The notes under the pieces are model-generated. The model worked only from the letters and a program-made list of their open reading frames with translations, was not told where the DNA came from and did not search any database. DNA of 36,558 nt, from assembly GCA_947494205.1 (NCBI GenBank), contig CANLUH010000032.1, positions 1 to 36,558 of the forward strand. The letters run 5' to 3'. The position numbers were made by a program, and so were the translations under genes. Shown here piece after piece: positions 1,330 through 31,211 of this stretch (the first letter of the stretch is position 1; each line of letters opens with the position of its first letter). This DNA comes from an uncultured Flavobacteriaceae bacterium. Its GTDB lineage: Bacteria; Bacteroidota; Bacteroidia; Flavobacteriales; Flavobacteriaceae.

Positions 1330-4300
1330 TTGAAAATACTACAGCAAAAAACATTATACTTTTCAGAAGGTAAATCAGATAAAGTCTATGAGGTTGATTT
1401 ATGCGAATCCGGACAAGACTTGTACATCGTTAATTTTAGATATGGTAGAAGAGGAGCTAGTTTAAGGGAAGGCACAAAAACTGTTTTTCCGGTTCCATAT
1501 GAGGAGGCTTTAAAAGTGTTTAATAGTCTTGTATTAAGTAAAGAGAAAAAAGGCTATACAGAAGATGCTACAGTAAAGCAACCCGAAATCAATCCGACGC
1601 CTAAAGAGGAAAAGGTAAATACAGCAAGAGAAGATACGATATTAAAATATTTAAAAGATGCTATTGCTGGTGTTTATGTTAGAGATTGGAAAGTCTCCAG
1701 AATAATATGGAGAGCATCGCATTTAAAAATATCTAAGGCAATTCCTTTAATAAAACATTTTATAGACTCTAAGGATGCTTTTGAGCAATATGCAGCAATT
1801 TATGCGTTAGCAGAGTTTAATGACCCTTCAGAAAAAGAAAAGATTTACAATATATTTAATGCTTTAGGCTTTAAAGATAAAGTAGGACGTATTGCAGCGG
1901 CTTACATTCTGAAATTTGGAAATGCAACAGAGCAAGCAAAAATTAGTAACGAGGCATCAAATCAGTTACCAGAAGAACTTCAAAACCTCACTAAGATAAG
2001 TCAAGAGTATTTTAATACACTAGCAGTTTATTTCTTAAAAGATAAAGGTATAGACGCTTCGGTGTTATATTACACCTATATCCTTTCATTAAATAATGAG
2101 GCATTTAGAAAACAACTCTATGCTTTTATAGAAAAGGCGCCCTTAAAAGTAAATACATTTAAATCGATACGCTATATATACAGAACGGCACATTTAATAG
2201 AAGATGTAACGTTCTCTGCATTGGTTTCCAAACGTATTGCGATAAGTAATCCAGGGTATTCTTCCAGTTATTTATATGTTGATAATGTTTGGTCTACTGT
2301 CGATAATGAAAAACAAAAAGCAAATCCGTCGATAGCTTTTTCAAAGAAAACAAAAAACTATTTTAATAAAACAACATACAAGCATGTTTACGAACTAAGC
2401 CAGCATAATACATCTAATTATATAATATTTGCCACGGCACTTTTAATAAGTCTTGATGATGCATTAGATAAACGTAAAGAAGACATTCAGTATTATTATA
2501 ACTATAATAATGATACGAGACGTTATGAAACCGAAAAACGATGTTTCCCAAAGTATCACGATTTTTTAGCGCTCATGTATATTGTTTATGGCCGTTCGGA
2601 AAGATTACAAAATCAGAATAATAAATGGTTTTATATAGAAGGCGATAATAAAAACGAGAGTAATTCTAGAGAAGAAGTTTTACAAGAATTATGGAATACG
2701 AAACCAGAACAAGTACTCTCTATATTAATTAATGCAAAAAGTGATATTGCTATTTCATTTGCGTTGAGAATAGTAAAAGAAAATACACACTTTTTAGAAA
2801 ATATAGATACGAATACGATAAGTCAATTAATAGCACATTATCACCCAAAAGTATTAGATGCTGTTATAGGTATTGTTGAAGAAAAATATGCATCAACTAA
2901 ACCAGAAGATACCATTGTATTAGCATTACTTAAATCGGGTAACGAAAAAGCCAATACATTAGGATTAAGATGGCTTACCGCTTATGAAGCAGATTATTTT
3001 TCTAATTCCGATTTTATAGCGGAGTTACTTTTAACAGGGAAAGCCGAAGTTATTCAGTTTATTAAAGCATTATATTCATACACTGTAAAGTACAATAAAC
3101 CATTACTAATAGATGACTTAGAACCGTTATTTATAATCCCTTCAGCTTATACTTTCGAGTATCTTGTTTTAGCGAATGACTTAATAGGTAATACTTACTT
3201 TGGTAAATTATTGAGTACCGTTTCCGAAGAAAAAATAAAACAATTGGCCAGTTCAAATACTTCAAATAAATTGTTTGCAGCGAACTTGGCAAAACACAAT
3301 GCGATACCAACGTATCGATTGTTTAAAGACTCTATAGATGCTTATATAAATTCTGAAGAAGCAGAATTAAGAAAGGTGGGTATTGAATTACTTTCTCATT
3401 TTCCTGAAAGTTTCTTATTAGAAAATCATCAGAAAATAAGTGGATTCTGTTTTTCTGAATATGATGAAGTACGAGAAGCTATTCAGCCAACAGTTGAAAA
3501 ACTCATGGCACTAGATAGCAACTTTAAAAATAATTTATTTAAAGCCTTATTAGGAGCCATAGAAGAAGCAGAAGCTTATGAAGGCTTACATAAAAACTGC
3601 TATGAACTTTTAACCAATAATTATAACCAGCATTTAAAAGATAGTACACAAGAGCATATTTTTGGTTTAGTATTATCTAAATACGAGTACGCTCAAAAAC
3701 TGGGATTACCTTTATTTGAAGACAAAATAAACCTAGAAAAATTATCCGTAAAAACGAATGTGCAATTGGCGCAAAGTGATGTACTTGCGATTAGAGAATA
3801 TTTGAAATCGTATTTTGAAAACAACATAGATACAATTAATAACACATTAGAAGACGCGTTATTAATTTTTAATTCTAGTTGGGAAGATATCATTACTTGG
3901 GGATGCACGTATTTTGAAAAGCATATAAAACCAGAACGTTGGACAGTAGACGTATTATTGTATGCTTGCGACCACACTAAAACCGAAGTACAGCATTTTG
4001 GGCGTAAAATGATAACGCAACATTTTAGTGAGGATAAAGGATTACCGTTGTTACTAAAACTACAAGAGCACCCAACGAAAACAATGCAGTTTTTTGTTAC
4101 TAATTATTTAGATAATTACGCGAAAGGAAATACAGCCGTTATTTTACAGTTAGAAACCTTTTTTAAAACAAGTTTGTTTAATATAAATACTAATAGAGTT
4201 ACAAAAACAAGGATTTATACGTTTTTGGAAGCAGAAGCAATAAAAGATAAAGCCGTAGCAGAAATGACAGTACGATTGGTTAATAGTATTTTAGGAACGA

Positions 4301-4398
4301 ACACACTATTAGATAATAGTAATAATATAGATTTACTATTAACTATAGCAGAAACCTTTCCAGAAATTGAAGTTCCACTATTAATAAAACAGAATTAA
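1330..4398 (+). CDS. WGR-domain, ARM/HEAT-like repeat protein of type XIII-like retron
   Basis: This is a 1022-residue protein. Residues 1-80 form a WGR domain (KVYEVDL ... FRYGRRGA ... EGTKT ... PYEEALKVFNSLV ... KKGY), a fold known from PARPs and MolR-type proteins where it contacts nucleic acid. The remaining 900 residues are almost all predicted alpha-helical, with repeated helical pairs of ARM/HEAT character and no visible catalytic motif. The start is TTG: an in-frame TAA sits directly in front (1327-1329), no ATG occurs in frame before the WGR domain, and the WGR domain begins at once, so TTG is the best start. The gene is 3 bases ahead of the SWIM gene, and the order ARM protein, WHSWIM protein, ncRNA, RT matches type XIII in retron classifications as I recall them. 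A role as sensor or effector in anti-phage defence is inferred. Confidence 0.8.
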   Translation: MKILQQKTLYFSEGKSDKVYEVDLCESGQDLYIVNFRYGRRGASLREGTKTVFPVPYEEALKVFNSLVLSKEKKGYTEDATVKQPEINPTPKEEKVNTAREDTILKYLKDAIAGVYVRDWKVSRIIWRASHLKISKAIPLIKHFIDSKDAFEQYAAIYALAEFNDPSEKEKIYNIFNALGFKDKVGRIAAAYILKFGNATEQAKISNEASNQLPEELQNLTKISQEYFNTLAVYFLKDKGIDASVLYYTYILSLNNEAFRKQLYAFIEKAPLKVNTFKSIRYIYRTAHLIEDVTFSALVSKRIAISNPGYSSSYLYVDNVWSTVDNEKQKANPSIAFSKKTKNYFNKTTYKHVYELSQHNTSNYIIFATALLISLDDALDKRKEDIQYYYNYNNDTRRYETEKRCFPKYHDFLALMYIVYGRSERLQNQNNKWFYIEGDNKNESNSREEVLQELWNTKPEQVLSILINAKSDIAISFALRIVKENTHFLENIDTNTISQLIAHYHPKVLDAVIGIVEEKYASTKPEDTIVLALLKSGNEKANTLGLRWLTAYEADYFSNSDFIAELLLTGKAEVIQFIKALYSYTVKYNKPLLIDDLEPLFIIPSAYTFEYLVLANDLIGNTYFGKLLSTVSEEKIKQLASSNTSNKLFAANLAKHNAIPTYRLFKDSIDAYINSEEAELRKVGIELLSHFPESFLLENHQKISGFCFSEYDEVREAIQPTVEKLMALDSNFKNNLFKALLGAIEEAEAYEGLHKNCYELLTNNYNQHLKDSTQEHIFGLVLSKYEYAQKLGLPLFEDKINLEKLSVKTNVQLAQSDVLAIREYLKSYFENNIDTINNTLEDALLIFNSSWEDIITWGCTYFEKHIKPERWTVDVLLYACDHTKTEVQHFGRKMITQHFSEDKGLPLLLKLQEHPTKTMQFFVTNYLDNYAKGNTAVILQLETFFKTSLFNINTNRVTKTRIYTFLEAEAIKDKAVAEMTVRLVNSILGTNTLLDNSNNIDLLLTIAETFPEIEVPLLIKQN

Positions 4399-4401
4399 TA
4401 T

Positions 4402-6030
4402 ATGCAGTTTAATTATAAGTATGGTGGTACAAGTGCCGTAAGTAACAGCGTGTCTGCAACCGATGTTAGTTTTGCTCCAGACGTTTTACGGGAACCTACG
4501 TTTTTTGTAGGCACATTAGATAAAAAAATACCATTTCGAGAAGCTATTTCTGCATTGCATCATGTGGTGGTTGCAGATTTTAATTTTCAGCCCAAAGATA
4601 ATTCAGAATACTTAGCATGGCTTAAAAGCCAGGAAGAACTATGGCTTAGTGAAGCCAGTTCGGATGCATCGAAATTACAAGCCGAAATACATAATGTACG
4701 TTCTAAACTAGAAGGCCTTCGTAAAGACAGAGATGTTATTATGAAGCCCTATTATAAAGCACAAAAAAAATATTTTAAATATTTATATACAAGAGATTAT
4801 GCTGCTTGGTTTGTTTTAGATCCCGTAATTACAGTACATCCCGACCAAGTGTTTTTTGAATGTTTTAGTAAAGACGAATCTGTCTACGGAAAACTTTCGT
4901 GCGGTTACGATGTGTTTAATAATATAAGCGACTTTAAATGTGGGACAACTAATATAGATTATTCGAAAGCGCTGTATGAAGAGTTTCAGAAAATAAGAAC
5001 CTATAAGGAAACCGATTTTAAAATTGATCCTAAAGGATTCGACGTTAAAACAACAGGAGAAGATAGTTACAGGGAGGTTAAAATAGATTTGCCAGACAGT
5101 TGGGTACGTGGGTTTTTACAGGTGAGTACAGCAATGACTTCAAATAAAGTGTCTTTTGAATTACAAGCAATAGACATTGCCAATTTTATAAGCGTATTAA
5201 AACGAAATAAAGAACGTAAAAGTCCACGTTCTATAAAATATAAATTAACACCAGGAGAACCTATTGTTGCTGTTTTCGAACCTTGGAATATAGAGGTGGT
5301 TTGTAAGCAGTCTATATATAAAGGAGACACCGCGCAAGAAATAAGAGTTTGGGGACGTAGACGTATTTTATTATTAGAGCGTTTATTGCCAATAACTAAT
5401 ACATTTACAGTTCACCTTTTAGGAACAGGAATGCCATCTTTCTATACAGCGCATTTAACAGACAACATGTATTTTACATTAGGCTTATCTGGTTGGACGG
5501 CAAACGATTGGACACAATCAAGTCAGTTAGATTTATTAGCGCCAAGAGGACAAGTACCAGCAACGACCATGCAAAGTGTGTATTTAGAATTGCGAAAACA
5601 TTGGTTTGCAAACGAGGCAGATATTGCTAAAACAATGGGTTTAGAGCAATCTGTTGTAAATAAATCATTAGAAACCTTTACCCAAGCAGGTAAAGTAATT
5701 TACGATTTAAAGAATAAAGTCTATCGTGTACGTGAATTAAAACGCGAAGGCATAGACATAGAATCGTTACGTTTTTCTAGCGAAACTGATAAAGAAGCAT
5801 ACCGATTAATGCAGCAAAATGCTGTAACCGATTTAAAAATAAAAGAACAAAAAGATACAATAGCTTTAACAAGTACAGTAAGTAACACGTATAAAACAGC
5901 AGTGACAATAGATAAAGACTTAAAAATCACTGATGCTAGTTGTACTTGCAGTTATTATTATATGAATAAAATGACAAAAGGACCTTGCGAACATATATTG
6001 GCAACAAGAATCACTTTTGATAAAAAATAA
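4402..6030 (+). CDS. Winged-helix SWIM zinc-finger protein (WHSWIM) of retron
   Basis: The 542-residue protein has a poorly characterised N-terminal two thirds with a helical segment at about 70-125, a predicted winged helix at about 388-445 (ELRKHWFANEADIAKTMGLE ... YRVREL), and a C-terminal SWIM zinc finger with C514, C516, C529 and H531 in the CxC-n-CxH pattern. SWIM fingers bind DNA or proteins in many bacterial accessory proteins. The ATG start follows the WGR gene stop by 3 bases, so the two are probably translationally coupled. Eighteen bases after its stop the a1 segment of the retron RNA begins. The pairing of an ARM-type and a WHSWIM-type protein with an RT is the signature of type XIII retrons. 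No nuclease or other catalytic motif is visible, so how it acts is unknown. Confidence 0.8.
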   Translation: MQFNYKYGGTSAVSNSVSATDVSFAPDVLREPTFFVGTLDKKIPFREAISALHHVVVADFNFQPKDNSEYLAWLKSQEELWLSEASSDASKLQAEIHNVRSKLEGLRKDRDVIMKPYYKAQKKYFKYLYTRDYAAWFVLDPVITVHPDQVFFECFSKDESVYGKLSCGYDVFNNISDFKCGTTNIDYSKALYEEFQKIRTYKETDFKIDPKGFDVKTTGEDSYREVKIDLPDSWVRGFLQVSTAMTSNKVSFELQAIDIANFISVLKRNKERKSPRSIKYKLTPGEPIVAVFEPWNIEVVCKQSIYKGDTAQEIRVWGRRRILLLERLLPITNTFTVHLLGTGMPSFYTAHLTDNMYFTLGLSGWTANDWTQSSQLDLLAPRGQVPATTMQSVYLELRKHWFANEADIAKTMGLEQSVVNKSLETFTQAGKVIYDLKNKVYRVRELKREGIDIESLRFSSETDKEAYRLMQQNAVTDLKIKEQKDTIALTSTVSNTYKTAVTIDKDLKITDASCTCSYYYMNKMTKGPCEHILATRITFDKK

Positions 6031-6041: not shown

Positions 6042-6048
6042 AACCCAT

Positions 6049-6279
6049 GGTAGTGATAAGATAAAAACCTTGCATTTTGATTGGTGGATCGCCAATCTTG
6101 CTAACAGATACCGAACGCGTCACTGACTCGAACTTAACTTGTGAAATAGGTACTAGCATACCATTTCCGGTTAGACTTCTGCGAAGTGAAATAGTATGCT
6201 AGTACCTATTTCACTGGAGTTGTTCAATTCAGTCTTGAGAATCGTACGAAGGGAATACAAAATACATCTTATCGCTACC
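6049..6279 (+). ncRNA. Retron msr-msd non-coding RNA
   Basis: The gap between the SWIM gene and the RT gene holds the hallmarks of a retron RNA. The ends pair: ggtagtgataagat (6049-6062, a1) with atcttatcgctacc (6266-6279, a2), 14 base pairs including one G-U. Inside, a short msr-type hairpin gattgg...ccaatc spans 6079-6097. A long msd-type hairpin follows: arms 6141-6161 and 6194-6214 are perfectly complementary over 21 bases (ggtactagcata against tatgctagtacc in the core), topped after one mismatch by a further 5 pairs (6163-6167 with 6188-6192) and an inner hairpin acttc-tgc-gaagt at 6175-6187. Pairs aact/agtt (6136-6139, 6218-6221) extend the base. No T-run follows the long hairpin, so it is not a simple terminator. 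The G at 6072 (ccttgc) is one candidate for the branching guanosine; this is not proven. A T6 run follows a2 (6280-6285), and the RT start codon is 11 bases after a2. Confidence 0.85.
6141..6214 (+). repeat. msd long inverted repeat (21-bp perfect arms)
   Basis: Arms 6141-6161 and 6194-6214 are exact reverse complements, separated by 32 bases that themselves fold. This is the part expected to be reverse transcribed into the hairpin of the multicopy single-stranded DNA. Confidence 0.95.
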
Positions 6280-6290
6280 TTTTTTATTAT

Positions 6291-7793
6291 ATGAGAAATT
6301 CTACAGAAAGAAGACAAGAAATTTATGATAAAATAAAAGAATCTTCTAAACAGGAATACATACTTTCTGAAATGAAACGTTTGGGCTTCTGGAAAGAAGG
6401 TGTCATAGATTTTGAAAGTGTTAATACCTTTTTTAAGGAAGAAGCTGAACTGTCTAAAAAACTTCAAGAACTTCTTAAAGAAAAACGAATTATTGAAAAT
6501 CCTGAAGCTTACATAGAAAAAAAGCATCAGGAGCGTAAATTAGCATCAAAGCAGTCTCAAAAAGAAACCAAAGCTAGACGAGAACAAGAACGTTTAGAAA
6601 AAGCCGAACGTTGGAAAGCATCGAAAGATAAAGACATTATTTATGTTGGTTCTGGGTATTCTAATAGTCTTAATAAACAAACCTCAAACGATTCAAAGTT
6701 AAAAGCTCAAAGCCTACCTGTATTACATAATGCAGAAGATTTAGCCAAAGCAATGCATATTCCTGTAGGTGAACTTCGATTTTTGTCATTTACGCGAAAG
6801 AACTCAAAAATTAGTCATTATAAGCGTTTTCAAATGGCTAAAAAATCTGGAGGCTATCGTTTAATTTCAGCGCCAATGCCTAAACTAAAAAAAGCACAGC
6901 ATTGGATTTTAGAACATATATTAAATAAGGTAACGGTACACGATAATGCACACGGTTGTGTTATTGGTAAGTCTATAAAAACAAATGCTATACCTCACAT
7001 TGGTAAGGCAGTCGTTATTAATCAAGATTTTCAAAACTTTTTTCCATCAGTAACTTATAATAGAATAAAAGGTGTCTTTTTATCTTTAGGTTATTCCCAT
7101 CAAATAGCAACTATACTATCGCTATTATGTTCAGAGCCTAAAATAGTAGATGTGTCTTTATTAGGAGAAGACTATTATGCACAGCGTGGTGAGCGTTTTT
7201 TACCGCAAGGATCGCCATGTAGTCCAGCTATAACTAATATTCTATGTAGAAAATTAGATTTTAGATTATCTGGTTTGGCTAAAAAGTATAATTTCGATTA
7301 TACTAGATATGTAGATGATATTACGTTTTCGGGTGATAAAAATAGCTTATCTAAAATTACACCATTGCTTAAATATTCGGGTAAAATAGTTAGAAGCGAA
7401 AATTTTAAACTGCATCCAGAAAAACTGCGTGTTATGAAACGTAATGCGAAACAAGAAGTTACAGGTGTTGTAGTTAACGAAAAAGCGAATATATCTAAAG
7501 CGTCTTTAAAACGATTTAGAGCCTTATTGTTTCAAATAGAAAAAGATGGTATAGAAGGGAAGTCATGGAATAATGGTGGCCCAGTTTTAGCACAAATAGA
7601 TGGTTATGCTAATTTTATTTATCAGATAGATGCAGAAAAAGGAGCGGTTTACAAACAACGTGTCGCTGCTATTTTAGAAAAATATAATTATATAGACAAT
7701 CATAGAAAACAATATGCACCTCATGCTAAACAAGGCGTTTCTGCTATGTTAAGTGGTTTTGCTAAAAAAATATCTTCGTTTTTTAAGAAGTAA
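6291..7793 (+). CDS. Retron reverse transcriptase
   Basis: The 500-residue RNA-directed DNA polymerase copies the msd portion of the adjacent RNA. Residues 1-130 are a charged, largely helical extension absent from minimal retron RTs. The RT core runs from about 165 to 460: HGCVIGKSIKTNAIPH includes the retron-type NAxxH motif (232-236), motif A is INQDFQNFFPS with D246, motif B is QGSPCSPA (306-313), motif C is YVDD (340-343) with both catalytic Asp present, and VTG at 390-392 is the second retron hallmark. A short C-terminal thumb/X region follows, with no maturase or integrase domain, which argues against group II introns; no template/variable repeat pair is evident, which argues against a diversity-generating retroelement. 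The ATG is 11 bases after the a2 segment of the ncRNA and in the same direction. Subtype assignment to XIII rests on the two upstream partners. Confidence 0.93.
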   Translation: MRNSTERRQEIYDKIKESSKQEYILSEMKRLGFWKEGVIDFESVNTFFKEEAELSKKLQELLKEKRIIENPEAYIEKKHQERKLASKQSQKETKARREQERLEKAERWKASKDKDIIYVGSGYSNSLNKQTSNDSKLKAQSLPVLHNAEDLAKAMHIPVGELRFLSFTRKNSKISHYKRFQMAKKSGGYRLISAPMPKLKKAQHWILEHILNKVTVHDNAHGCVIGKSIKTNAIPHIGKAVVINQDFQNFFPSVTYNRIKGVFLSLGYSHQIATILSLLCSEPKIVDVSLLGEDYYAQRGERFLPQGSPCSPAITNILCRKLDFRLSGLAKKYNFDYTRYVDDITFSGDKNSLSKITPLLKYSGKIVRSENFKLHPEKLRVMKRNAKQEVTGVVVNEKANISKASLKRFRALLFQIEKDGIEGKSWNNGGPVLAQIDGYANFIYQIDAEKGAVYKQRVAAILEKYNYIDNHRKQYAPHAKQGVSAMLSGFAKKISSFFKK

Positions 7794-8908: not shown

Positions 8909-11900
8909 TTAATTTTCAAAACCTTTCTTTAAAACCTCTTGTATCCCTTGTAAATGATCACTAAACGCCATCATTTGACTTAATACTTGCGCCATTTCGT
9001 TTTTATTACCAAAGCCTTTCAATTTATTGTTTTTAATAAAAAGGTCTTTAATAGTTGTCCAGCGGTCTAATTCTTCTGGAGAAAGTTTATCTATAAGTTC
9101 CTTGTATTTTAGTAAATTGGCTTCTGCGGAAGAGGTTAAGGTTTGCGACTCACTTTCATAATGAGATAATACCAAACGTTGTAATTCTTCATCATTCATA
9201 ATAGGAACAATCTTAGCAATTAATTTATTCATATCACGATAGGAGCCTTGTAACTTAAAAGAAGGTTCTATACGATATTGATCTTCCATTGCTGCCGATT
9301 GTATGTAGGTTTGATTTACCTTCATTATTGTATCTCTAACTATAATGGCTTTTTCTAGTACCGAAGTATAGTCTTGTATCTCTTGCTTTGTATGGTTTCC
9401 TTTTAAATCAACATCTGCTGTATTATTCTCTACTTTATCTATTAATGCATAGACATCTTCAAAATATTTACTACTTAATTGATGTAATACAGGATTAGAA
9501 GTTAAGGCATTTTCAATTAAACTTAGTTTAAATAAATGTGCCGTATCTCCAATGATATCTCCTAAATTATAAATATCTGCACGGTTTGCTAACATATCTG
9601 GAATTTGGAAACGGTCTCCGCTTTCTGTATAAGGGTTACCAGCCATTATTACACAGAATTTCTTGCCACGTAAATCATAGGTTTTTGATTTTCCTTTGAA
9701 AATACCTTCAATTTTACGAGTACCATCAGATAAGGAAATAAACTTTTGTAAAAATTCAGGATTACAGTGTTGAATATCGTCAAGATATAGCATCACATTA
9801 TCGCCCATCTCAAAAGCTAGATTTAATTTTTTTAATTCTTCTCTAGAGGCGGAGTTGTTTGCAGACATTGGGTCTACAGATGTAACTTCGTGCCCTATGG
9901 CTGGTCCGTTAATTTTCATAAATACCAATCCTAAACGGTTAGATATGTATTCCATTAAGGTTGTTTTACCATAACCAGGAGGAGAAATTAATAATAGCAT
10001 TCCCATTCTATCGGTACGTTTGTTGTCGCCAACGGTACCTAATTGTTTTGACAAGTTATCCCCAATTAAAGGGAAGTATACTTGGTCTATTAGTTTGTTT
10101 CTTACAAAAGAAGACAATACTCTAGGTTTAAATTCTTCAAGTTTTAACTCTTCTTTAAGTTGCTCGGTAATTTCTTGTTTTGCTTCTTTATAGCGTATAA
10201 AATTAGGCACTTCTATTGAAGCGAATTCATGTAAATTAGTCATGAATTCATGATAATTGAATGTTAAAACACCATCAATTACTGTGCTGTGATCTCCTTT
10301 TAAATCTTTTATAGCTTCAATTGGATGTACTGCTTTTATTACAGAGTTAGACTCGTGTTCAAATAATAAAATACATACAATTTCATCGGTATAGCTTTCA
10401 GTTGAAACGCCTTGAGTAGATAGAAAAGAGCTTACCCATTGTTTGGTTAAGTGTATCTTAGCTATATAGTCTTCGGTTTTTTCTATACCAGCTTTAAACT
10501 TATGAAAAGCGTCTTGCTTTTTTAATGTTTTTACTAAATCATCTTTTAAGCTAAAGGCATCTGTACTAATTTGAAAAGCATTATTTTCTTTAAGTTCTTT
10601 AAAAAGATAGTTTGCAATCTGTAAACTAATGTCTTCAGAAAATAAATTACTGTTTTTAGAAAACTCAGAGATTTTCGCTCCTAAGGTTTCAATTACAAAA
10701 GAAAAAGAATCGCTATCTGGAAATACACTTAATACTTCTCCTGACGCTTTAATGTTTGAATTCTGAAATAATTGTTCTGTTTCAGACAGTGAATTCCAGA
10801 AATATTGAGCGTAAGCTCTTAAAGTAGGAGAGTAGGTAAGTAGTCCTAATTCATGATGTTTATGTACTAATGTGTGCAATATTTTACTAGCATCTGTATC
10901 ATGAACGCCTTTTACATAACCTTCTGAATATAAATTACTACTTTCTTGCTGAACAATGGTTAATAGTTCTTCTTGTGTTTTATTAACCAGTTCTTCTTCT
11001 GGTAATGATTTAAATATTTTATAGGCTAAATAAGCAGAACGATAAACGTTTTTGTTTTCTGAAACTAATTCTTGATTCCAATATCTTTTAGATTGTAATA
11101 GGATATCGTTTTCAATAGTGTCGTAAAAGTCGGTTCCGGTTAAATGATAGTATAACTCTTCATTTTTATAAACAATAGTTAGGTCTAGTACTTGTTTGTT
11201 TACACCGAACTTATGTTTACCAAACTTAATAACGTTTTCACCGTCTTCGTATAATTCTTGTTTATCCTTTAATTTACGAAGTGCATCTTCTTTAGCTACT
11301 TTTAATTGTGTTTCTATAGCTTCTGCTTTACCAGCATCATCTAATTCACGTAATTGATTAATAATGTCTCTTACCTTATTAATCATTAAATCTGCAGCGA
11401 AATAGCCATTAATATCTTCAATCGTATCGAAGCTTTGTGCTTTTTTGCCTACACCTTTTAGTATACGTTCTGATGCTGTTTGTAAGGCTACAGCTTTTTT
11501 ATTTCGCTTTTCTATTAAATTATTTTTACGGGAATCGAAAGCAGCATGAATTTCTTCACGTTTTTCTATAATCTGAGTAATAAACTCTTCGAAATCGGCG
11601 AATTTACCTTCTAATTCTTCAAGCTGGATAGCCGTTTTAGTTAGGAACTCGTCGCATTTTTCAGGAGTCGTAGCCATATCAATATAGTTGATGATACTCT
11701 GGTCTATCAACTTTAATTGTGCAACAAAATCAGCTTTTGCTTCAGAGCTGCCAAGCTTTTTAATACTGTTCTTTATTCCTGCTTTTAATTGATTTAGTGT
11801 AGCAAAAATTAAAGAAATATTATCTATAATTTTTGTAGACTGTGACGTGTCTTCAATTTCAAGATTAGAAACAATATCAATTAATAGTTCTAAGTCTCCA

Positions 11901-13762
11901 GTAATCTCATTAACTTCTTTTTCTAACGCTTTTGCTTCTACTACCTTTTTTATTTCTGGTAAAGCAGTCTCTTTTTCGGCTACTCGTTTATGGTAAGGTG
12001 CTAAAGCTTTATCATTTAATAAAAATTGAACGCAACGTTTAGAAATTAATGTATTTTGTTCTGCAACTTGTGCTTCTAAAGCTTCTAGATGTTTTTTTTG
12101 AATGTAACGAACATCGTGTAAACTAATAACTTCCCCTCGTAAGGTTCGTAATTGATTTAATAAACCAACAAAATCATCTATGGATTTAAATGAAGTACTT
12201 TTTATTTTACTAAAAAGTTCATCAGATTTTACATTGATTTCTTTAGTCGATTTCTCGGCTTGTTTTTTTAATTGAACTACTTTTTCAAATTCTTCTATAG
12301 CCGCATTGGCTGCTTCGTTAATTTGAAGTACGGGTTCATTTAATAGATATGTATCTGTTTCTGGAAGCCAATAATAGGTGTCGTTTATGTCTTTAGATAT
12401 TTTAGCAATATCGTTGTATAACCCCGTATAATTATCTTCTTTGTTTAACAGATTAATTAATTCATGACACTCCGCCATAGCACGAACAATATCTTTATTT
12501 CCTATTTTAAATAGTAAACTATCGGTGTGCTGAGATGGCATAAAATCGCCTTTTAAATATGGTGTTTGCCATATTTGTACCACATGGTGTTTGGTTTGTT
12601 CGTCTTCTGTTTTAAAGTAACATAATTCGCCATTTTCAAGTAGTGTAAACCCATTACATATAATAGGAGTTTTTACTTCTTGTTCAATGATATTATAAGA
12701 CATTAAAATGTATAGACCGCGAATTGTAGCGTAGAAAACATATAAAAAATCTTCACCATTTGGTGAGCTTATTTTCTTTTGGAATTTAACTTCTTTAACA
12801 TCACTTTCAAATATTTTATATTCTCCAGTTTGTAGGTAGTATCCGTTAGGAAAAATAATACCATGTTCGTCTGGTAATTGAACTGTAGTATCTTTTATAC
12901 TTTCTATACGTTGTACTTCTTGTAACTTATGGTTATAAACAAAATAACGTGGTGCTTCCTGGAATGGTTTTATCTCTATAGTGATTAGGTTACCCAAGTC
13001 GCCAAAACGAAACTGACCATCGTCTAAGGTTTGATCTATATGTTCTACAGGTTCTGAAAGGATACCTTTTCCGTCCTCCGTATTATCTTCAATTTTAATG
13101 GTTAAATCTCCGCCTATAGTTTCAACAAATACTTTGTCTAGAATTGAAATGTGCGAATGTGTTCCGTAGCGATGCATATCGCGAGTAACTTCTTGCCATT
13201 TAAATTCGTGTTGCGTAGGAAATTGGTATTCGTGTTCGCTACGATTATCTATATATTGAAGCTCATTTTCTTTAATTAACCATTTAAATGTTTTAATGTC
13301 TTTTGTGCTTTCGCTTAATTGAAAAACCATGTGTAAATAGTTTCCAATGACGGCAAATTTTGAGAATATGGTATTTCGGTAGTACTTATAGAGATTGGTG
13401 AAATCGTTGATGAAAATGTCATCGTTAATTAAGTCTAAAGATTGTAAGTGAAAGTGATTTTCTTTAAACTTATAAATACTAAAAACATCGGTAAGTTTTA
13501 TATCTGTTCGTAAACCAAAGTGCACGTTGTAACCAAAGATGGACGTGTTTCCAAAAGAAATAATGTCTCTGGCGATACAATTATTCTCTGTGTTTATTCT
13601 ATCGTTAGCAATTAATTTGGTTTCTATATTTCCAAAAACATGTTTTCTAGCATCATTTAATTTATGCAATCTTCCTTGTAGTTCTTGCTTTTGTTTTTGC
13701 AATCTACCCTGAATGATTTCATAAGTTCCACCGTCTAATTGTTGATTGTTTTGGTTTTCCAT
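8909..13762 (-). CDS. Giant AAA+ ATPase of DUF3686 'DNA repair ATPase' type
   Basis: The 1617-residue protein opens with a conserved segment rich in beta strands (GGTYEIIQGRL ... IFGYNVHFGLRTDIKLTDVFSIY) typical of proteins annotated as DNA repair ATPase. A long coiled-coil middle section spans about 500-850, and a C-terminal AAA+ module has Walker A PPGYGKTT (1261-1268, K1266), Walker B LYLDD (D1328, D1329), a sensor-1 region VIMAGNP near 1373 and an arginine-containing segment following. The name DNA repair is historical annotation. Here the gene is last in an operon with YbjN-like, PspA, NfeD-like and flotillin genes, which suggests remodelling of a membrane-associated PspA or flotillin assembly instead. 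ATG start; convergent with the oxygenase gene. A 10-bp inverted repeat precedes it within the operon. Confidence 0.8.
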   Translation of the reverse strand: MENQNNQQLDGGTYEIIQGRLQKQKQELQGRLHKLNDARKHVFGNIETKLIANDRINTENNCIARDIISFGNTSIFGYNVHFGLRTDIKLTDVFSIYKFKENHFHLQSLDLINDDIFINDFTNLYKYYRNTIFSKFAVIGNYLHMVFQLSESTKDIKTFKWLIKENELQYIDNRSEHEYQFPTQHEFKWQEVTRDMHRYGTHSHISILDKVFVETIGGDLTIKIEDNTEDGKGILSEPVEHIDQTLDDGQFRFGDLGNLITIEIKPFQEAPRYFVYNHKLQEVQRIESIKDTTVQLPDEHGIIFPNGYYLQTGEYKIFESDVKEVKFQKKISSPNGEDFLYVFYATIRGLYILMSYNIIEQEVKTPIICNGFTLLENGELCYFKTEDEQTKHHVVQIWQTPYLKGDFMPSQHTDSLLFKIGNKDIVRAMAECHELINLLNKEDNYTGLYNDIAKISKDINDTYYWLPETDTYLLNEPVLQINEAANAAIEEFEKVVQLKKQAEKSTKEINVKSDELFSKIKSTSFKSIDDFVGLLNQLRTLRGEVISLHDVRYIQKKHLEALEAQVAEQNTLISKRCVQFLLNDKALAPYHKRVAEKETALPEIKKVVEAKALEKEVNEITGDLELLIDIVSNLEIEDTSQSTKIIDNISLIFATLNQLKAGIKNSIKKLGSSEAKADFVAQLKLIDQSIINYIDMATTPEKCDEFLTKTAIQLEELEGKFADFEEFITQIIEKREEIHAAFDSRKNNLIEKRNKKAVALQTASERILKGVGKKAQSFDTIEDINGYFAADLMINKVRDIINQLRELDDAGKAEAIETQLKVAKEDALRKLKDKQELYEDGENVIKFGKHKFGVNKQVLDLTIVYKNEELYYHLTGTDFYDTIENDILLQSKRYWNQELVSENKNVYRSAYLAYKIFKSLPEEELVNKTQEELLTIVQQESSNLYSEGYVKGVHDTDASKILHTLVHKHHELGLLTYSPTLRAYAQYFWNSLSETEQLFQNSNIKASGEVLSVFPDSDSFSFVIETLGAKISEFSKNSNLFSEDISLQIANYLFKELKENNAFQISTDAFSLKDDLVKTLKKQDAFHKFKAGIEKTEDYIAKIHLTKQWVSSFLSTQGVSTESYTDEIVCILLFEHESNSVIKAVHPIEAIKDLKGDHSTVIDGVLTFNYHEFMTNLHEFASIEVPNFIRYKEAKQEITEQLKEELKLEEFKPRVLSSFVRNKLIDQVYFPLIGDNLSKQLGTVGDNKRTDRMGMLLLISPPGYGKTTLMEYISNRLGLVFMKINGPAIGHEVTSVDPMSANNSASREELKKLNLAFEMGDNVMLYLDDIQHCNPEFLQKFISLSDGTRKIEGIFKGKSKTYDLRGKKFCVIMAGNPYTESGDRFQIPDMLANRADIYNLGDIIGDTAHLFKLSLIENALTSNPVLHQLSSKYFEDVYALIDKVENNTADVDLKGNHTKQEIQDYTSVLEKAIIVRDTIMKVNQTYIQSAAMEDQYRIEPSFKLQGSYRDMNKLIAKIVPIMNDEELQRLVLSHYESESQTLTSSAEANLLKYKELIDKLSPEELDRWTTIKDLFIKNNKLKGFGNKNEMAQVLSQMMAFSDHLQGIQEVLKKGFEN

Positions 13763-13842
13763 TTATTTTTTTTAATCAAGATGGTTTAGAAGAAAGAGAC
13801 ACTACATTATTAAATAATGAATGGCATCTAAGTAAGAAAAGT

Positions 13843-13872
13843 AAGAGTCTAGTTTTTGTTCGCTAGACTCTT
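13843..13872 (-). terminator. Intra-operon hairpin between flotillin and ATPase genes
   Basis: Arms aagagtctag (13843-13852) and ctagactctt (13863-13872) are a perfect 10-bp inverted repeat with a 10-base loop. On the minus strand the hairpin is followed by a T-rich but interrupted tract, so it may act as a partial terminator or processing site between flotillin and the ATPase, about 81 bases before the ATPase start. Confidence 0.5.
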
Positions 13873-13883
13873 AGTTTTTGTTT

Positions 13884-15950
13884 TTAAGATAATTTCTTAT
13901 CTGATAATCCTAATCCTTTAGCAAGGTTAAATAGATTACTAAATAGACTTTGTTCGTCTTTATTATTTGTTTTGTCTTTTAAGTCCATTAAAAGATTAGC
14001 TATTGTCAAGTTTTTAATGTCTTCGGAAGAAATACCATACTTAGTAGCAAAATCTTTTACTTTTTCAAGTAAGTTTCCTTTTACATCATCGCTACCTAAA
14101 ATAGCGTCTTTTACTTCTTGAATGTTATCACTATGTTGTACTAATCTATCAATACCTTTAGCTTTAGTAATTTGCCCGATGATTTGATCGAAGAACATAG
14201 TTTCACCTCCAACAATATCAATATTAGCAGCTCTTAATGCATCTCCAATAACAAGTGCTTGCGCGTCTGCTATATCTTTTTGGATGTTTATTTCGGCTAA
14301 GTCCACTTGTAATTCCTTCTCTAAACGTAATTTGAATTCTTCGTGCTCTTTACCAACACCATCTAACTTCTTCATCGCTTCAGCTTTTTCTTCTATTCCA
14401 GCTGCATCAGCAATGGCTTTTTCTTTAATAACTTCAGCTTCGGCTAATCCTTCTTCTTTAATAGCTTCTGCTTTCGCTAAAATACCAGCTGCTTCTGCTT
14501 TCGCTTTTTTCTCAATAATTGTAGCCTCTACTATTCCTTGACGCTCATTTGCATCTGCTTTAGCATGCATTACTTGCGCTTCAGACATACCAATTGTTGC
14601 TTCTTCTTTAGCTTTAGCTTCTGCTAATGTTTTACGAGCTTCCGCTTCTTTTTCACTAGCTTCTTTTTGAGCTTGTGCTTCGATATTAATTTCTTCAGCT
14701 TTTTGTTTTGCTGCTTCTTTTTGTGCTTCAGCTGCTTTAATAGTTGTAATTAATGCTTCTTGAGCATTTGCTTCAGCAATAGTAATTTTTACTTGTTTAT
14801 CACGGTCGGCAGTTTTAAAAGCTTCAATATCTTTCATGTTTTCTTGCTCTTCAACTACACCTTTTTCTAAGACAACACGGTCGCGAATAACATCTTGAAT
14901 GTTTTTCTTTTCAACTTCTAAAACTTTTTCCTTTTCTATTTGTGCTAATGTTACAATACGTTCTCTTTCTGTAGCTTCTAACATTCTGTCTTTTTCAACA
15001 CGTTCTGTTTCTACAGCATCAGTTCTTAACTTATTTTTTTCTGCTACTATAACTTGACGTTGTTTGTTTTCTTCGGCTACTTGAACTTTTTCTTCTGTAG
15101 CGATACGTGCTGTTTCAGATTTTAAACGTTCTTCTTCAGCAACCTTTAGTGTTTCTGCTTCTTCACGCGCTTTAATATTCGCGATTTCACGTTTTTGTTG
15201 TTCTTCTTTTTCAGCTAATTGCTTATCTAATTCTAAAATAGCTTCACGTGCTTCAACATCTTGTTTACGAATTATTTTTTCTTCGTCACGTTTAATTAAA
15301 TTCGCTTTTACATTTTGATTAGCTGTTAATTCTGTAATCTTTTTAATTCCTTCTGCATCTAAAATATTATCCGCTTTTAAGAAACTTACTGGTGTTTGCT
15401 CTAAATAATCAATAGCACAATCTTCTAGAGTATAACCGTTTAAATCTGTACCAATAATATCTACAATTTCGTCTCTAAACTCTCTTCGAGCTTCATATAA
15501 TTCCGTGAATTGGAACTTTTTACCTACTGTTTTTAGGGCTTCAGAAAATTTAGCTTCAAATAATTCTTCCAATGTAGTATGGTCTGATGCTCTTTCACAA
15601 CCAATGGTTTGCGCTACTTTCTTAATATATTCTACTTCGTTATTTACGCGAACAAAAAAGGCTACTTTAATGTCTGCTCGCATATTATCTTTACAAACTA
15701 ATCCATCATTACCTAATCGTTCTATTTGAATCTTTTTCACAGAAATATCCATTATTTCTACGCGGTGAAATACAGGTACGACATACATTCCTCGGTCCGT
15801 TGCGACCTTGGTTCCTTTAAATCCTGTTCTTACTAAGGCTTCACCTTGCGGTACCTTTTTGTAGAACATAGCAATGATTGCAAAATAGACAATAACTAAG
15901 AATAGTAAGAGTCCAAGACCTATTCCTAAAATTTGTGGTAAGTTATCCAT
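13884..15950 (-). CDS. Flotillin / SPFH-domain membrane scaffold (YqiK-like)
   Basis: The 688-residue protein has one N-terminal membrane segment (about 7-30, GIGLGLLLFLVIVYFAIIAMF), then an SPFH/PHB domain at about 33-200 (VPQGEALVRTGFKG ... RGMYVVPVFHRVEIMDISVKKIQIE ... ELFEAKFSEALKTVGKKF), and a very long Glu/Ala/Lys coiled coil at about 200-560 containing the EA-repeat stretches typical of flotillins. The tail of about 110 residues includes a FSNLFNLAKGLGL segment. It is longer than FloT-type flotillins and closer to YqiK. Flotillins scaffold ordered membrane domains. The gene lies between the NfeD/YqiJ-like gene and the AAA+ ATPase; flotillin-NfeD adjacency is a known conserved pair. ATG start. 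Confidence 0.92.
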   Translation of the reverse strand: MDNLPQILGIGLGLLLFLVIVYFAIIAMFYKKVPQGEALVRTGFKGTKVATDRGMYVVPVFHRVEIMDISVKKIQIERLGNDGLVCKDNMRADIKVAFFVRVNNEVEYIKKVAQTIGCERASDHTTLEELFEAKFSEALKTVGKKFQFTELYEARREFRDEIVDIIGTDLNGYTLEDCAIDYLEQTPVSFLKADNILDAEGIKKITELTANQNVKANLIKRDEEKIIRKQDVEAREAILELDKQLAEKEEQQKREIANIKAREEAETLKVAEEERLKSETARIATEEKVQVAEENKQRQVIVAEKNKLRTDAVETERVEKDRMLEATERERIVTLAQIEKEKVLEVEKKNIQDVIRDRVVLEKGVVEEQENMKDIEAFKTADRDKQVKITIAEANAQEALITTIKAAEAQKEAAKQKAEEINIEAQAQKEASEKEAEARKTLAEAKAKEEATIGMSEAQVMHAKADANERQGIVEATIIEKKAKAEAAGILAKAEAIKEEGLAEAEVIKEKAIADAAGIEEKAEAMKKLDGVGKEHEEFKLRLEKELQVDLAEINIQKDIADAQALVIGDALRAANIDIVGGETMFFDQIIGQITKAKGIDRLVQHSDNIQEVKDAILGSDDVKGNLLEKVKDFATKYGISSEDIKNLTIANLLMDLKDKTNNKDEQSLFSNLFNLAKGLGLSDKKLS

Positions 15951-16035
15951 AGTTTTAATTCGTGTGTTTAATTTAGTTTTTAGTTAATAATTTATATAGA
16001 AGTGTTTTTTCTCTTTAAGTAAACCATATTAAGCT

Positions 16036-16770
16036 CTAAAAATAGACTTCTTGAGTATATTTTTGTACATAATAAAATGATTTATCATCACTTGGTTTAA
16101 TAATTAATATAGAATCTCTAAATGCTATAGGGAAACCTTCTAGAGATTTTATGTTTATAGATAGCGTGTCACCGTCTACAATAACTTCAGCCGAGCCTAG
16201 TTTATTATCTTTAATATTAGATAAGCAAGTACCTCGCCTACCAATAAAATCTATTGGTGCATCGCCATCTTGATTTAAATTTTTAAAGAAACCTTTAAAA
16301 GGTGTAGTGACTATTTTTGTTACTATAAGCGATGGTAAAATAGCTGCCAGCATAAGTATAAAGCCAAATGAGGTGTCGAAGCTATGAGTTATAGATGTAC
16401 TTACTGCAGTACAAATCCACCAGATAAAAATCCAACACGTAAAGGTGAACATAAAAGGTAAGCCAACAAAATTGAAATAGATTAATACAACTTGCCACCA
16501 TTTTAGTGGTTTACGGCGTTTACCAATAACGTCTTCTTTATTGACTTCGGTGTTAGCAATGTCATGAAAATCTACATTGCCGCCTTCTATACCAGAATCG
16601 ATATCTACATCGGCGTCGATGTCTACATCCATGTCTACGTCTACATCGACATCGAGGTCGAAATCTAGGCCGGAAATCATGGTTATTAACCAATATACGA
16701 TGAGTAGAATGACTAATAGCGTTAATGTAATATTTACACTAGAAAATAATATGTCGGTTAGTGATGTCAA
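16036..16770 (-). CDS. NfeD/YqiJ-like membrane protein with OB-fold tail and Asp-alternating tract
   Basis: This is a 244-residue protein. The membrane segment at about 10-34 is followed by a striking tract (36-58) where Asp alternates strictly with hydrophobic residues (DFDLDVDVDVDMDVDIDADV). Two or more membrane helices follow at about 93-165 (WWQVVLIYFNFVGLPFMFTF and later), then a C-terminal beta-rich domain (170-244; IDFIGRRGTCLSNIKDNKLGSAEV) of the OB-fold type found in NfeD/YqiJ proteins. These proteins partner flotillins, and flotillin is the next gene. The gene starts 4 bases after the PspA stop, so they are co-transcribed. The Asp tract is likely extracytoplasmic or loop-located and might bind divalent cations; that part is inference. 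Confidence 0.8.
   Translation of the reverse strand: MTSLTDILFSSVNITLTLLVILLIVYWLITMISGLDFDLDVDVDVDMDVDIDADVDIDSGIEGGNVDFHDIANTEVNKEDVIGKRRKPLKWWQVVLIYFNFVGLPFMFTFTCWIFIWWICTAVSTSITHSFDTSFGFILMLAAILPSLIVTKIVTTPFKGFFKNLNQDGDAPIDFIGRRGTCLSNIKDNKLGSAEVIVDGDTLSINIKSLEGFPIAFRDSILIIKPSDDKSFYYVQKYTQEVYF
16597..16665 (-). repeat. Alternating Asp codon tract
   Basis: Twelve Asp residues occupy every second position from residue 36 to 58 of the NfeD-like protein. At DNA level it reads as repeats of gtc/atc-type words on the plus strand (gacgtagac-like six-base units on the coding strand), so it can expand or contract by slippage. Confidence 0.85.
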
Positions 16771-16774
16771 TATA

Positions 16775-17494
16775 TTATGCTTGTTTATTGGTTTTATTTA
16801 GTTTTAATTGTTCTTTAAGCTTTGCTAAATCGCTTTCAGCAGTACTTTCAACGTTATTAATAACCTTGTCTATTTCGTCGTCTGCACTAACATTATTATT
16901 AGCGATATCTCCATACGCTTCGGACAAAGCTTCTTCTTGAGTTACTTTATCTTTCATACGTTCAAGCATAGCAACCGTACCTGTACTATCTAATTCTGCC
17001 ATTTGCTTGTTTAAGTTTTTTGTTGCTTTAGATACTTTAACGCGGGCTTTTAATGTTTTTAGCTCATTTTCCCATTTTTTAATATTGGTTTTAATGTCTT
17101 TAACATTGTTTTCTAATTGCGATACCGAAGTGCTAAATTTAGTAACTTCATCTTTATGTAAATGAGACTGTTTATTTGCTTCTTCTTTTTTTATTAAAGC
17201 TTCTTTGGCTAATCTGTCTGCTTCTGTAGCATCTAATTTGCCATCACCAGCTTTTTGCAAAATAAGCATTGCTTTTTGTTGGTAATCGTCTGCTTTAGCA
17301 GTCGTGTTTTCCATATCGTTTTTAGCACGTATGGCTAAGGCTTTTACTTGCGCTAAGGATTCTATGCTTTTTTCAAGATCGTTACGTAAATCTCTAATGC
17401 CTTGTTCGGTCATTTTAATAGGGTCTTCCATTTGGTCTATAGCAGAATTTGCTTCAGATTGTCCTATCTTGAATAGTCTTCTAAAAATATTCAT
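16775..17494 (-). CDS. pspA: PspA/IM30 (ESCRT-III-like) membrane-stress protein
   Basis: The 239-residue, almost wholly helical protein has an N-terminal amphipathic start (MNIFRRLFKIGQSEANSAID) followed by MEDPIKMTEQGIRDLRNDLE, the conserved opening of PspA/Vipp1. Long coiled-coil helices follow to about 190 and a charged tail ends in LNKTNKQA. PspA/IM30 proteins assemble on damaged or curved inner membrane and maintain its integrity. It lies 11 bases after the YbjN-like gene and 4 bases before the NfeD-like gene. Neither PspF nor PspBC is present, so regulation must differ from Escherichia coli; the divergent XRE gene is a candidate. ATG start. Confidence 0.93.
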   Translation of the reverse strand: MNIFRRLFKIGQSEANSAIDQMEDPIKMTEQGIRDLRNDLEKSIESLAQVKALAIRAKNDMENTTAKADDYQQKAMLILQKAGDGKLDATEADRLAKEALIKKEEANKQSHLHKDEVTKFSTSVSQLENNVKDIKTNIKKWENELKTLKARVKVSKATKNLNKQMAELDSTGTVAMLERMKDKVTQEEALSEAYGDIANNNVSADDEIDKVINNVESTAESDLAKLKEQLKLNKTNKQA

Positions 17495-17505
17495 AAGTGT
17501 TTTTT

Positions 17506-17901
17506 TTAATATTTTGAAAAATTAATTATTTGTTCTGAATATTCGCTTAACAATAAACTAAGCGAATTTAAACTGCCTTCTAATTCATTTAAATCTAAAT
17601 TTTCTAATTGTAAAGTGTCTCTAAAAATAACACGCTCAAAGGTTTCATCTAAAACAAAAGCTCCATGAATAATGTCGCGATTTTTTTTAAGTAAATGTTT
17701 GAAAATTTCTTCACTGGGTTGGTTTATTTTAAAAATAAACTGCTCCATAATTAATATGGGATACGAAATACCAATGATTAAATTTTTAATACCAAAACTT
17801 TCTTTCTCAATAACTATGATGCCTTCGTTAACATCTTCTTTTACAATATTTACATTTAATTCTAATAAAAAGTTTTTGGTCTTTAAATAGTGGTTATTCA
17901 T
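17506..17901 (-). CDS. YbjN-like small protein, first gene of PspA operon
   Basis: The 131-residue protein has alternating strands and helices (NVNIVKEDVNEGIIVIEKES ... NLIIGISYPILIMEQFIFKI ... LLKKNRDIIHGAFVLDETFERVIFRDTLQLENLD), fitting the YbjN/type III secretion chaperone-like fold. Small proteins of this type commonly precede PspA-family genes and may act as chaperone or adaptor. It has no signal peptide or membrane segment. The ATG is preceded by the 240-bp divergent regulatory region, so it is probably the first gene of the five-gene operon. Family assignment is by pattern, not search. Confidence 0.65.
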   Translation of the reverse strand: MNNHYLKTKNFLLELNVNIVKEDVNEGIIVIEKESFGIKNLIIGISYPILIMEQFIFKINQPSEEIFKHLLKKNRDIIHGAFVLDETFERVIFRDTLQLENLDLNELEGSLNSLSLLLSEYSEQIINFSKY

Positions 17902-30339: not shown

Positions 30340-31211
30340 AACGTTATACCATTATCAAAACATAAAATATGTTAAACACATTATTACAAGAAACTGCACA
30401 AGATGCAGAAGCATTAGTAGATGGCGAACCAGTTGAGAAAACGCTATCCATAATAGAACTAATTACAAGTAGTGGTACAGCAGGAATCGTCATTATAGCG
30501 GTACTGTTTTTACTTCTAATAATGGCAACGTACATTTATTTTGAACGTTTATTTGCTGTAAAGGAAGCCTCTAAAGTAGATGCTAATTTTATGAATCAAA
30601 TAAAAGATTACGTTAGTAATGGTAAAATTGATTCTGCACAAAATTTATGTGCACAAGCCAATTCACCGGTATCTAGATTAATAAGTAAAGGGATTTCTAG
30701 AATAGGGAAACCATTAGAAGATATTAATACAGCCATAGAAAATGCTGGACGTTTAGAAGTGTATAGCTTAGAAAAAAACGTAAGTGTACTAGCAACAATA
30801 TCTGGAGCAGCACCAATGATAGGATTCTTAGGAACTGTAATCGGGATGATTATTTCCATCTTCGAAATTGCTAATTCAGGAGGGTCTATAGATATTAAAA
30901 CATTAGCCGACGGACTATATACAGCCATGACTACTACCGTAGGAGGATTAGTTGTTGGTATTGTAGCTTACATAGCATACAACCATTTAGTAGTAAAAAC
31001 CGATAAGGTAGTATACCAAATGGAAGCGAATTCATTAGACTTTTTAGACTTATTAAACGAACCTGTATAGTATGAATTTAAGAGGAAGAAATAAAGTGAC
31101 ACCAGAATTCAATATGTCTTCTATGACAGATATTGTATTCCTGCTACTTATCTTTTTTATGATTGCGTCTACATTGGTTTCCGCCGAAGCGATAGATTTA
31201 TTATTACCAAA
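30340..31211 (+). repeat. Direct repeat copy 1 (ExbB with start of ExbD)
   Basis: This stretch corresponds at a constant offset of 2362 bases to 32702-33573: the 29-base leader before the ATG (aacgttatacc...), the whole ExbB gene and about the first 46 codons of ExbD. Identity is in the mid-90s percent by eye in the segments I compared. Confidence 0.85.
30369..31070 (+). CDS. exbB: ExbB/TolQ proton channel protein, copy 1
   Basis: The 233-residue inner-membrane protein forms the pentameric proton channel that, with ExbD, energises TonB. Three membrane segments are visible at about 37-58, 138-165 and 188-206, with the MotA/TolQ/ExbB signature in ISGAAPMIGFLGTVIGMIIS and the polar-faced MTTTVGGLVVGIVAYIAYN. 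It differs from the second copy at only five residues (52, 80, 84, 92, 95), all in the N-terminal half. The stop is separated by one base from the ExbD start. ATG start. Confidence 0.95.
   Translation: MLNTLLQETAQDAEALVDGEPVEKTLSIIELITSSGTAGIVIIAVLFLLLIMATYIYFERLFAVKEASKVDANFMNQIKDYVSNGKIDSAQNLCAQANSPVSRLISKGISRIGKPLEDINTAIENAGRLEVYSLEKNVSVLATISGAAPMIGFLGTVIGMIISIFEIANSGGSIDIKTLADGLYTAMTTTVGGLVVGIVAYIAYNHLVVKTDKVVYQMEANSLDFLDLLNEPV

Follow-up and report, generated by a model that had tools for sequence, protein, structure and literature searches.

The segment at 6049-6279 of the window (the whole 36,558-nt stretch analysed here, from an uncultured Flavobacteriaceae bacterium) is, with a probability of roughly 0.87, the msr-msd RNA of a type XIII retron with the order WGR - SWIM - msr-msd - RT; this figure includes the proposed sensing through its msDNA. 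The RNA lies in the 260-nt gap between the end of the SWIM ORF at 6030 and the start of the RT ORF at 6291, and its 3' end is 11 nt upstream of the RT start codon. The ORF coordinates thus bear out the earlier note, which had placed a retron RNA in a 260-base gap directly upstream of, and co-oriented with, a reverse transcriptase (RT). The genes of the operon are:

1330..4398, + strand, WGR and HEAT/ARM-repeat protein (WGR_XIII), 1022 aa; PADLOC WGR_XIII 1025 bits and HEAT-ARM_XIII 66 bits; Pfam WGR
4402..6030, + strand, SWIM zinc-finger protein (SWIM_XIII), 542 aa; PADLOC SWIM_XIII 743 bits; Pfam SWIM at residues 501-534
6291..7793, + strand, retron reverse transcriptase (RT_XIII), 500 aa; PADLOC RT_XIII 591 bits; Pfam RVT_1

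Because the neighbours of the RNA match the PADLOC models WGR_XIII, SWIM_XIII and RT_XIII, the retron is assigned to type XIII, the gene content of which (WGR/HEAT-ARM, SWIM and RT_XIII together in one operon) is present in full. All three ORFs are open and cover their PADLOC models almost completely. In the PDB, the WGR protein has weak matches to alpha-helical repeat proteins, the SWIM protein has no match up to E 0.1, and the nearest sequence to the RT is that of the Retron Ec86 RT (E 7e-42). The RT is of the retron type, with the motifs YVDD, VTG and N-A-x-x-H, the last of these being a retron RT motif; V390, T391 and G392, N232, A233 and H236, and D342 and D343 are invariant in the seven RTs compared. 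VTG is likewise a retron RT motif in the available part of PMC6868368. The window's genome holds a single match each to RT_XIII and to RNA model R2 (described below). A promoter scan gave 4 promoter-like sites against 2.1 in shuffles, and these were not used as evidence.

Elsewhere in the window, an ExbB/ExbD pair is duplicated (30369-31464 and 32731-33826), with the two ExbB copies 98% identical. Beside the retron, on the minus strand, 8909-17901 contains a cluster with a 1617-aa DUF3686/AAA ATPase and PspA-like and CesT_Tir_1-like proteins, and 131-1015 is a repetitive alanine-zipper ORF of 294 aa that looks fibre-like by eye.

The RNA consists of the following elements:

6049..6279, + strand, msr-msd RNA, whole, single copy; identified by fold z score, covariation and the R2 match
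6049..6062, + strand, a1, 5' arm of the outer helix, pairs with 6266-6279
6266..6279, + strand, a2, 3' arm of the outer helix, pairs with 6049-6062
6068..6071, + strand, 5' arm of helix P2, CCTT, pairs with 6249-6252
6249..6252, + strand, 3' arm of helix P2, AAGG, pairs with 6068-6071
6079..6097, + strand, msr hairpin of 8 bp (6079-6086/6090-6097) with a 3-nt loop GAT; 100% of cells paired in the 18-row alignment
6122..6233, + strand, msd stem-loop of 45 pairs, with a lower constant part, a distal variable part and a tip
6148..6162, + strand, fast-changing distal msd stem, 5' arm (alignment columns 101-115)
6193..6207, + strand, fast-changing distal msd stem, 3' arm (alignment columns 146-160)

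The dimensions are those of a retron RNA. The a1/a2 helix has 14 pairs, 13 Watson-Crick and one T-G, within the expected 8-30 bases; the single 8-bp hairpin falls within the one to three hairpins of 7-10 bp of an msr, and the msd is a long hairpin of the expected 10-50 bp. Its 45 pairs, one of them G-U, are distributed over six paired segments: the exact 21-bp stem at 6141-6161/6194-6214, the tip ACTTC-TGC-GAAGT at 6175-6187, and four further segments at 6122-6126/6229-6233, 6130-6133/6222-6225, 6136-6140/6217-6221 and 6163-6167/6188-6192. The earlier note had described the 14-bp a1/a2 complementarity, an msr-type hairpin, a perfect 21-bp msd stem and this folded tip, all of which were recovered here. 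The stem of about 21-26 bp that it predicted for the msDNA is too short for an msd of 45 pairs, and it overlooked the second helix, CCTT/AAGG, which lies next to G6072.

The minimum free energy of the region is -85.2 kcal/mol, compared with -49.5 +/- 4.4 in 200 dinucleotide shuffles (z -8.2; 0/200 as good). A chance or unrelated hairpin, such as a terminator or a miRNA-like fold, might be suspected from the best sub-threshold Rfam matches, which are microRNA hairpin models; these came from a permissive search and were judged to be chance. No Rfam 15 model matches the RNA region at gathering score and a terminator scan found no terminator-like site there. Together with the z score, and with conservation and covariation in two clades, by which it is already refuted, this leaves such a hairpin with a negligible probability.

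Conservation was examined at loci obtained by scanning genome contigs for relatives, of which the best 80 of 381 were used. The RNA is present upstream of the RT in 73 of these 80 loci, comprising all 17 of the closest (L023-L039, one copy each) and 56 of the 63 more distant. In the alignment of the window with L023-L039 (18 rows), the structure named above pairs in 98.5% of 1294 cells. Both-sided changes occur in 47 cells in 16 pairs, against a shuffled mean of 12.4 (0/500 as high); they comprise 9 cells in a1/a2, where 4 of the 14 pairs change on both sides, and 38 in the msd stem. Sliding the structure along the alignment gave 0-4 such cells, a control over which the named structure is favoured by construction, as it was partly taken from the window. 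The msr hairpin has two one-sided and no both-sided changes, hence little covariation of its own, and the letters of P2 are invariant, with one gap in each of two of its four pairs. A second clade, with the gene order RT-WGR-SWIM, was aligned separately (13 rows); using a structure derived by RNAalifold from the same 13 rows, with one doubtful helix omitted, it has 55 both-sided cells against 15.2 when shuffled. The compensatory changes that the earlier note had proposed to look for in a1/a2 and the msd are thus present in the 18 rows, and those in the msd are found again in the second clade. The identification of the RNA as a retron msr-msd is therefore supported by the gene set, by covariation and by the family models described next.

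Model R1, an RNA family model built from the 18 close rows, found the RNA in 56 of the 63 more distant loci, with a best E per locus of at most 1.3e-7. It found none at 15 loci whose RTs are more remote, with an identity of 30-38% and no WGR/SWIM match in the 4 kb covered. The reverse search used R2, built from 57 copies from 48 distant loci with the window and L023-L039 excluded; it finds the window RNA at 199.5 bits (E 7e-43). R2 matches the same 56 of 63 loci as R1, 48 of which supplied its rows, and in the 15 remoter-RT loci plus L103 it gave one match up to E 1, at 0.17. A de novo scan for long hairpins found at least one in 60 of 81 stretches upstream of RTs, compared with 5 hairpins in 73 downstream controls; none was found at threshold in the other 21, though most of these have model-found RNA. 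The family models match in hosts of seven phyla as recorded, several of them metagenome-assembled genomes (MAGs), so that the labels may mislead. In plasmids there was no DNA match to the RNA and one RT (43.8% identity over 92% of the query), and in viral contigs one distant RT (34%, L103) and no RNA.

Seven of the best 80 loci lack a recognised RNA (L048, L049, L100, L101, L096, L057 and L041). In the first four the contig begins 10-241 nt upstream of the RT, and L057 has a transposase-like ORF, identified by eye, upstream of its RT. At L096:983-2389 a deletion has fused the SWIM N-terminus in frame to the RT, and at L041:5155-6654 a type XIII-like RT lies beside a 499-aa ORF that is WGR-like by eye, with no SWIM match. 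The gene order is RT-WGR(-SWIM), with the RNA still 5' of the RT, in L002, L003, L004, L058, L062, L068, L069, L070, L074, L076, L078, L079, L080, L083, L085, L088-L092 and L095. In L024 a 232-aa ORF (6044-6742), lipoprotein-like by eye, is inserted between SWIM and the RNA, with RNA and RT remaining together.

The predicted points of initiation are:

6072, + strand, predicted priming (branch) guanosine in CTTGC; invariant in 18 rows and adjoining the a1/a2 stem as in known retrons
6247, + strand, predicted first templated base, C; from the geometry C-G-[AAGG helix], with copying toward about 6112-6122

In the proposed reaction a1 would pair with a2, and the short helix CCTT/AAGG would set G6072 beside the start of the template, a geometry at 6247 that we take to be like that of Retron-Eco1. 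The RT would then start at about C6247, primed by the 2'-OH of G6072, and copy the msd as far as about 6112-6122; once RNase H had removed the template, the product would be a branched msDNA, about 126-136 nt long and containing a duplex of 45 pairs. Both the priming site and the stop are predictions, and the length follows from a start at C6247 and an assumed stop at 6112-6122. It lies at or above the upper end of the range of about 80-130 nt given in the earlier note. In known retrons, according to the available part of PMC6868368, the guanosine that primes lies where the a1/a2 stem ends on its inner side, with TAGC as its commonest context. Here the sequence downstream of a1 is CTTGC, which is invariant in the 18 rows. 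In two overlapping sets of model-aligned copies, TTG[CA] occurs near the 5' end in 63/64 and 53/57, and CGAA[GA] near the 3' end in 60/64 and 52/57. Several of the misses are matches truncated before the part concerned, at least three of the five TTG[CA] misses starting inside the RNA, and three are one shared array slot reading AAGAAG.

A retron RNA could be genuine and yet decayed, with the operon inactive in the window's genome. The C-A mismatch at 6162/6193, directly adjoining the 21-bp stem, could be read in this way. However, at least one of the two junction pairs is unpaired in 15 of the 18 rows, so the mismatch is a shared trait and not decay. The three open, near-complete genes also argue against it, as does the comparison with L023, in which eight of nine RNA differences fall in the distal stem (30 of 231 positions) and are largely paired changes; the binomial p for this clustering is 6e-7, for a region chosen post hoc. 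Decay is thus improbable.

The distal stem is the fastest-changing paired part of the RNA. Its mean pairwise difference is 0.24 in the 5' arm and 0.22 in the 3' arm, compared with 0.03 and 0.02, respectively, in the lower stem; the unpaired P2-a2 joint changes just as fast (0.23). Among the changed cells of the 18 rows, those of the msd are 38 both-sided and 0 one-sided, against 9 and 8 in a1/a2 plus msr (Fisher p 2e-5 by cell, the cells being non-independent events); a further 18 msd cells are unpaired, and a two-column junction accounts for 16 of these. One array slot found in four genomes has 14 both-sided and 0 one-sided changes in the msd, and 7 of each in a1/a2. The second clade has 54 and 10 in the msd, with RNA-only helices that are nearly unchanged and offer little to compare. 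Since a G-U pair of the RNA is copied into DNA as an A-C mismatch, the both-sided pattern fits selection of the msd duplex as DNA, which it may be said to support rather than prove. G-U pairs make up 5.1% of the distal msd, 5.5% of the lower msd, 7.2% of a1/a2 and 11.8% of the msr in 103 folded copies (MFE folds, crude classes). Their depletion was considered as a general proof of selection at the DNA level and was demoted to support, because the pooled effect is modest and the second clade contains exceptions.

These observations also bear on whether the structure acts as RNA only, as a leader for RT translation or an RNA cofactor, without serving as a template. Such a role would agree with a 3' end only 11 nt away from the RT start codon and with the G-U pairs seen in the msd of the second clade. 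It is nevertheless a touch less probable still than decay: changes in the msd are mostly both-sided while a1/a2 tolerates G-U, and the RT, with its VTG and N-A-x-x-H, is nearest to that of Ec86 among solved sequences. The order a1-G-msr-msd-a2 is, moreover, the retron order as set out in the available part of PMC6868368.

In the distal stems of 46 non-redundant copies, the words GGTA (26 vs 7.7), ATAG (24 vs 7.3), ACTA (22 vs 7.8) and GTAC (13 vs 3.8) are enriched, with z up to 6.5, and GATC is absent (0 vs 3.8 expected, z -2.1). When 75 a1/a2 arms were tested likewise, other four-letter words reached z values of up to 4.6, the shuffles keeping single letters only. A vocabulary rich in GTA, CTA, GTAC and ATAG is therefore a lead, possibly to a signature of recognition or flexibility. 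Self-palindromic distal arms (GTAC...GTAC) were considered as a rule, which was dropped because L039 and L035 break it (by eye, uncounted).

We propose that the RT, the msr and the lower stem form a constant holder and that the distal duplex is the exposed part of the msDNA. On the model of other retrons, which act against phages, the msDNA-RT complex would hold back the WGR and SWIM proteins as putative effectors; these would be set free when a phage activity binds to the msDNA, modifies it or cuts it, and the infected cell would then be stopped. Fast divergence of the distal stem by mostly paired changes is what would be expected if selection sees duplex DNA, and it suggests where on the msDNA contact with phages may take place.

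The window carries one copy and is an ordinary single-copy member of the family. Among the 63 more distant of the best 80 of 381 relatives, eight loci have more than one copy, and the total after adding fetched regions (Saprospiraceae and Acidobacteriota groups) is 24 array loci with 60 copies:

L061:5910-6890, tandem msr-msd array, four copies
L075:685-1423, tandem msr-msd array, three copies
L064:6195-6939, tandem msr-msd array, three copies
L052:135-911, tandem msr-msd array, three copies
L050:1616-2701, tandem msr-msd array, three copies
L073:5937-6457, tandem msr-msd array, two copies
L056:5820-6632, tandem msr-msd array, two copies
L082:6489-6884, tandem msr-msd array, two copies
L148-L163, tandem msr-msd arrays

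On every contig that includes both SWIM and RT, the copies are located between the two genes, on the same strand. Of 248 genomes of L064's family (recorded as Saprospiraceae), 24 have a match and 18 have at least two on one contig, or 14 of 20 after removal of the four genomes that had suggested arrays. In 297 genomes of L061's phylum (recorded as Acidobacteriota) arrays occur in three of the four with a match, one being the suggesting genome, and in 395 genomes of the window's phylum the five with a match are all single-copy. Copies may have escaped these scans, in which strict filters were applied and only 5-9 candidates were scored in each genome. In an Aureispira genome, three copies adjoin the RT, and a fourth lies on a different contig, at its end and next to SWIM. 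In a quick tree of 72 RTs, which included 23 RTs of array loci and one (L102) with a row partly out of frame, the array state changes nine times, at least four of these by well-supported branches.

Within arrays (51 copy pairs, identities computed on a model-fitted alignment), the msr hairpin and the lower msd arms are alike (0.82 and 0.83/0.87), and the distal arms (0.43/0.45) and a1/a2 (0.29/0.25) differ. Each a1 nevertheless keeps its partner: own a1/a2 duplexes have a mean of -20.3 kcal/mol, compared with -9.8 for crosses, and 56 of 60 a1 pair best with the a2 of their own copy (the exceptions are in L061, twice in L148, and in L159). One slot (L050:2458, L073:6217, L150:2585) retains its distal stem across genomes, with an identity of 0.80-0.94 compared with 0.25-0.29 between the copies within L050; its a1/a2 is not kept (0.36-0.69). 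In the array slot common to different genomes, 18 pairs have both-sided changes. The constant parts of L061 and L149 are 0.91-0.97 alike within the locus, and in L148 (0.90), L154 (0.84) and L152 (0.82) two neighbouring copies are alike in the distal part too; to judge by these identities, the five arrays present a younger picture than the shared-slot loci. Neighbouring matches in five arrays are 2-6 nt apart, which leaves no room for separate promoters, so the copies of closely spaced arrays are likely to be on a common transcript. The 213-353 nt gaps of some arrays contain no hidden copies in a full-model search of six loci.

It is possible that the copies are dead duplicates or assembly artefacts, given that the eight array loci with named records are all MAGs, that some copies score low (58-80 bits), and that the distally similar neighbours of L148, L154 and L152 are as recent duplicates would be. 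We regard this as unlikely, in view of the matching of a1 to its own a2, the divergence of distal stems within most loci, the slot common to different genomes with its both-sided changes, and the occurrence of arrays in 24 loci. Two to four tandem RNAs with mostly different distal stems would then probably yield several msDNAs from one RT. More tentatively, at slightly less than even odds, type XIII may be a multi-sensor in which up to four RNAs share a single RT and a single WGR/SWIM pair. Each RNA would have a private a1/a2 address that holds its own ends together, a constant msr and lower stem to fit the common RT, and a rapidly diversifying distal duplex as bait for a different phage activity; arrays would widen the detection range of one defence operon, and single-copy operons would diversify their bait by paired changes. 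If arrays do make several msDNAs, sensing by one retron would be naturally multiplexed, and the arrays would supply orthogonal a1/a2 pairs with which a single RT could be made to produce several DNAs.

Compared with known systems, the window has the three genes of the type XIII retrons of PADLOC-DB (WGR_XIII, SWIM_XIII, RT_XIII) with the RNA 5' of the RT and without any difference in gene content. Mestre et al. 2020 is reportedly the defining paper for this type, and Khan et al. 2024 is said to be a retron census. PADLOC has msr-msd models, as stated in the accessible portion of PMC9252829. In the open literature on type XIII with retron or WGR, we found one passing mention, in a Variovorax study that lists the type from PADLOC (PMC11953036, in the portion available). 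A defined template with a predicted priming site and msDNA, for a retron type nearly absent from the open literature, is open to immediate testing. Searches of the open literature for retron RNAs in tandem or in several copies gave no relevant report. The window RNA is a new member of the family, and the tandem arrays are new as far as checked, so that the novelty rests on the relatives.

Retron-Eco1 (Ec86), the nearest in RT sequence among solved structures, presumably has a similar template-start geometry. The window differs from it in having CTTGC rather than TAGC, an a1/a2 in two parts with an internal loop, a 45-pair msd, and WGR and SWIM in place of the Eco1 effector. All experimentally validated retrons have msr and msd in a single cassette, and Retron-Sen1 (Se72) has a possible alternative msr, according to the available part of PMC6868368; unlike the arrays described here, Retron-Sen1 is not a tandem array of complete msr-msd units. 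In Ec86, Ec83 and Eco8 the effector is engaged by the msDNA-RT complex until a phage acts on the msDNA, by modification (a Dcm-like methylase), degradation or binding (SSB), respectively (PMC13158370, as far as its accessible text goes). An adenine methylase triggers Squ1 and helps to trigger Asa1 (PMC12548924, likewise from its accessible text). The window retron would, like these five, use its msDNA as the sensor, and a constant holder with a variable distal duplex as bait would fit such msDNA-sensing retrons.
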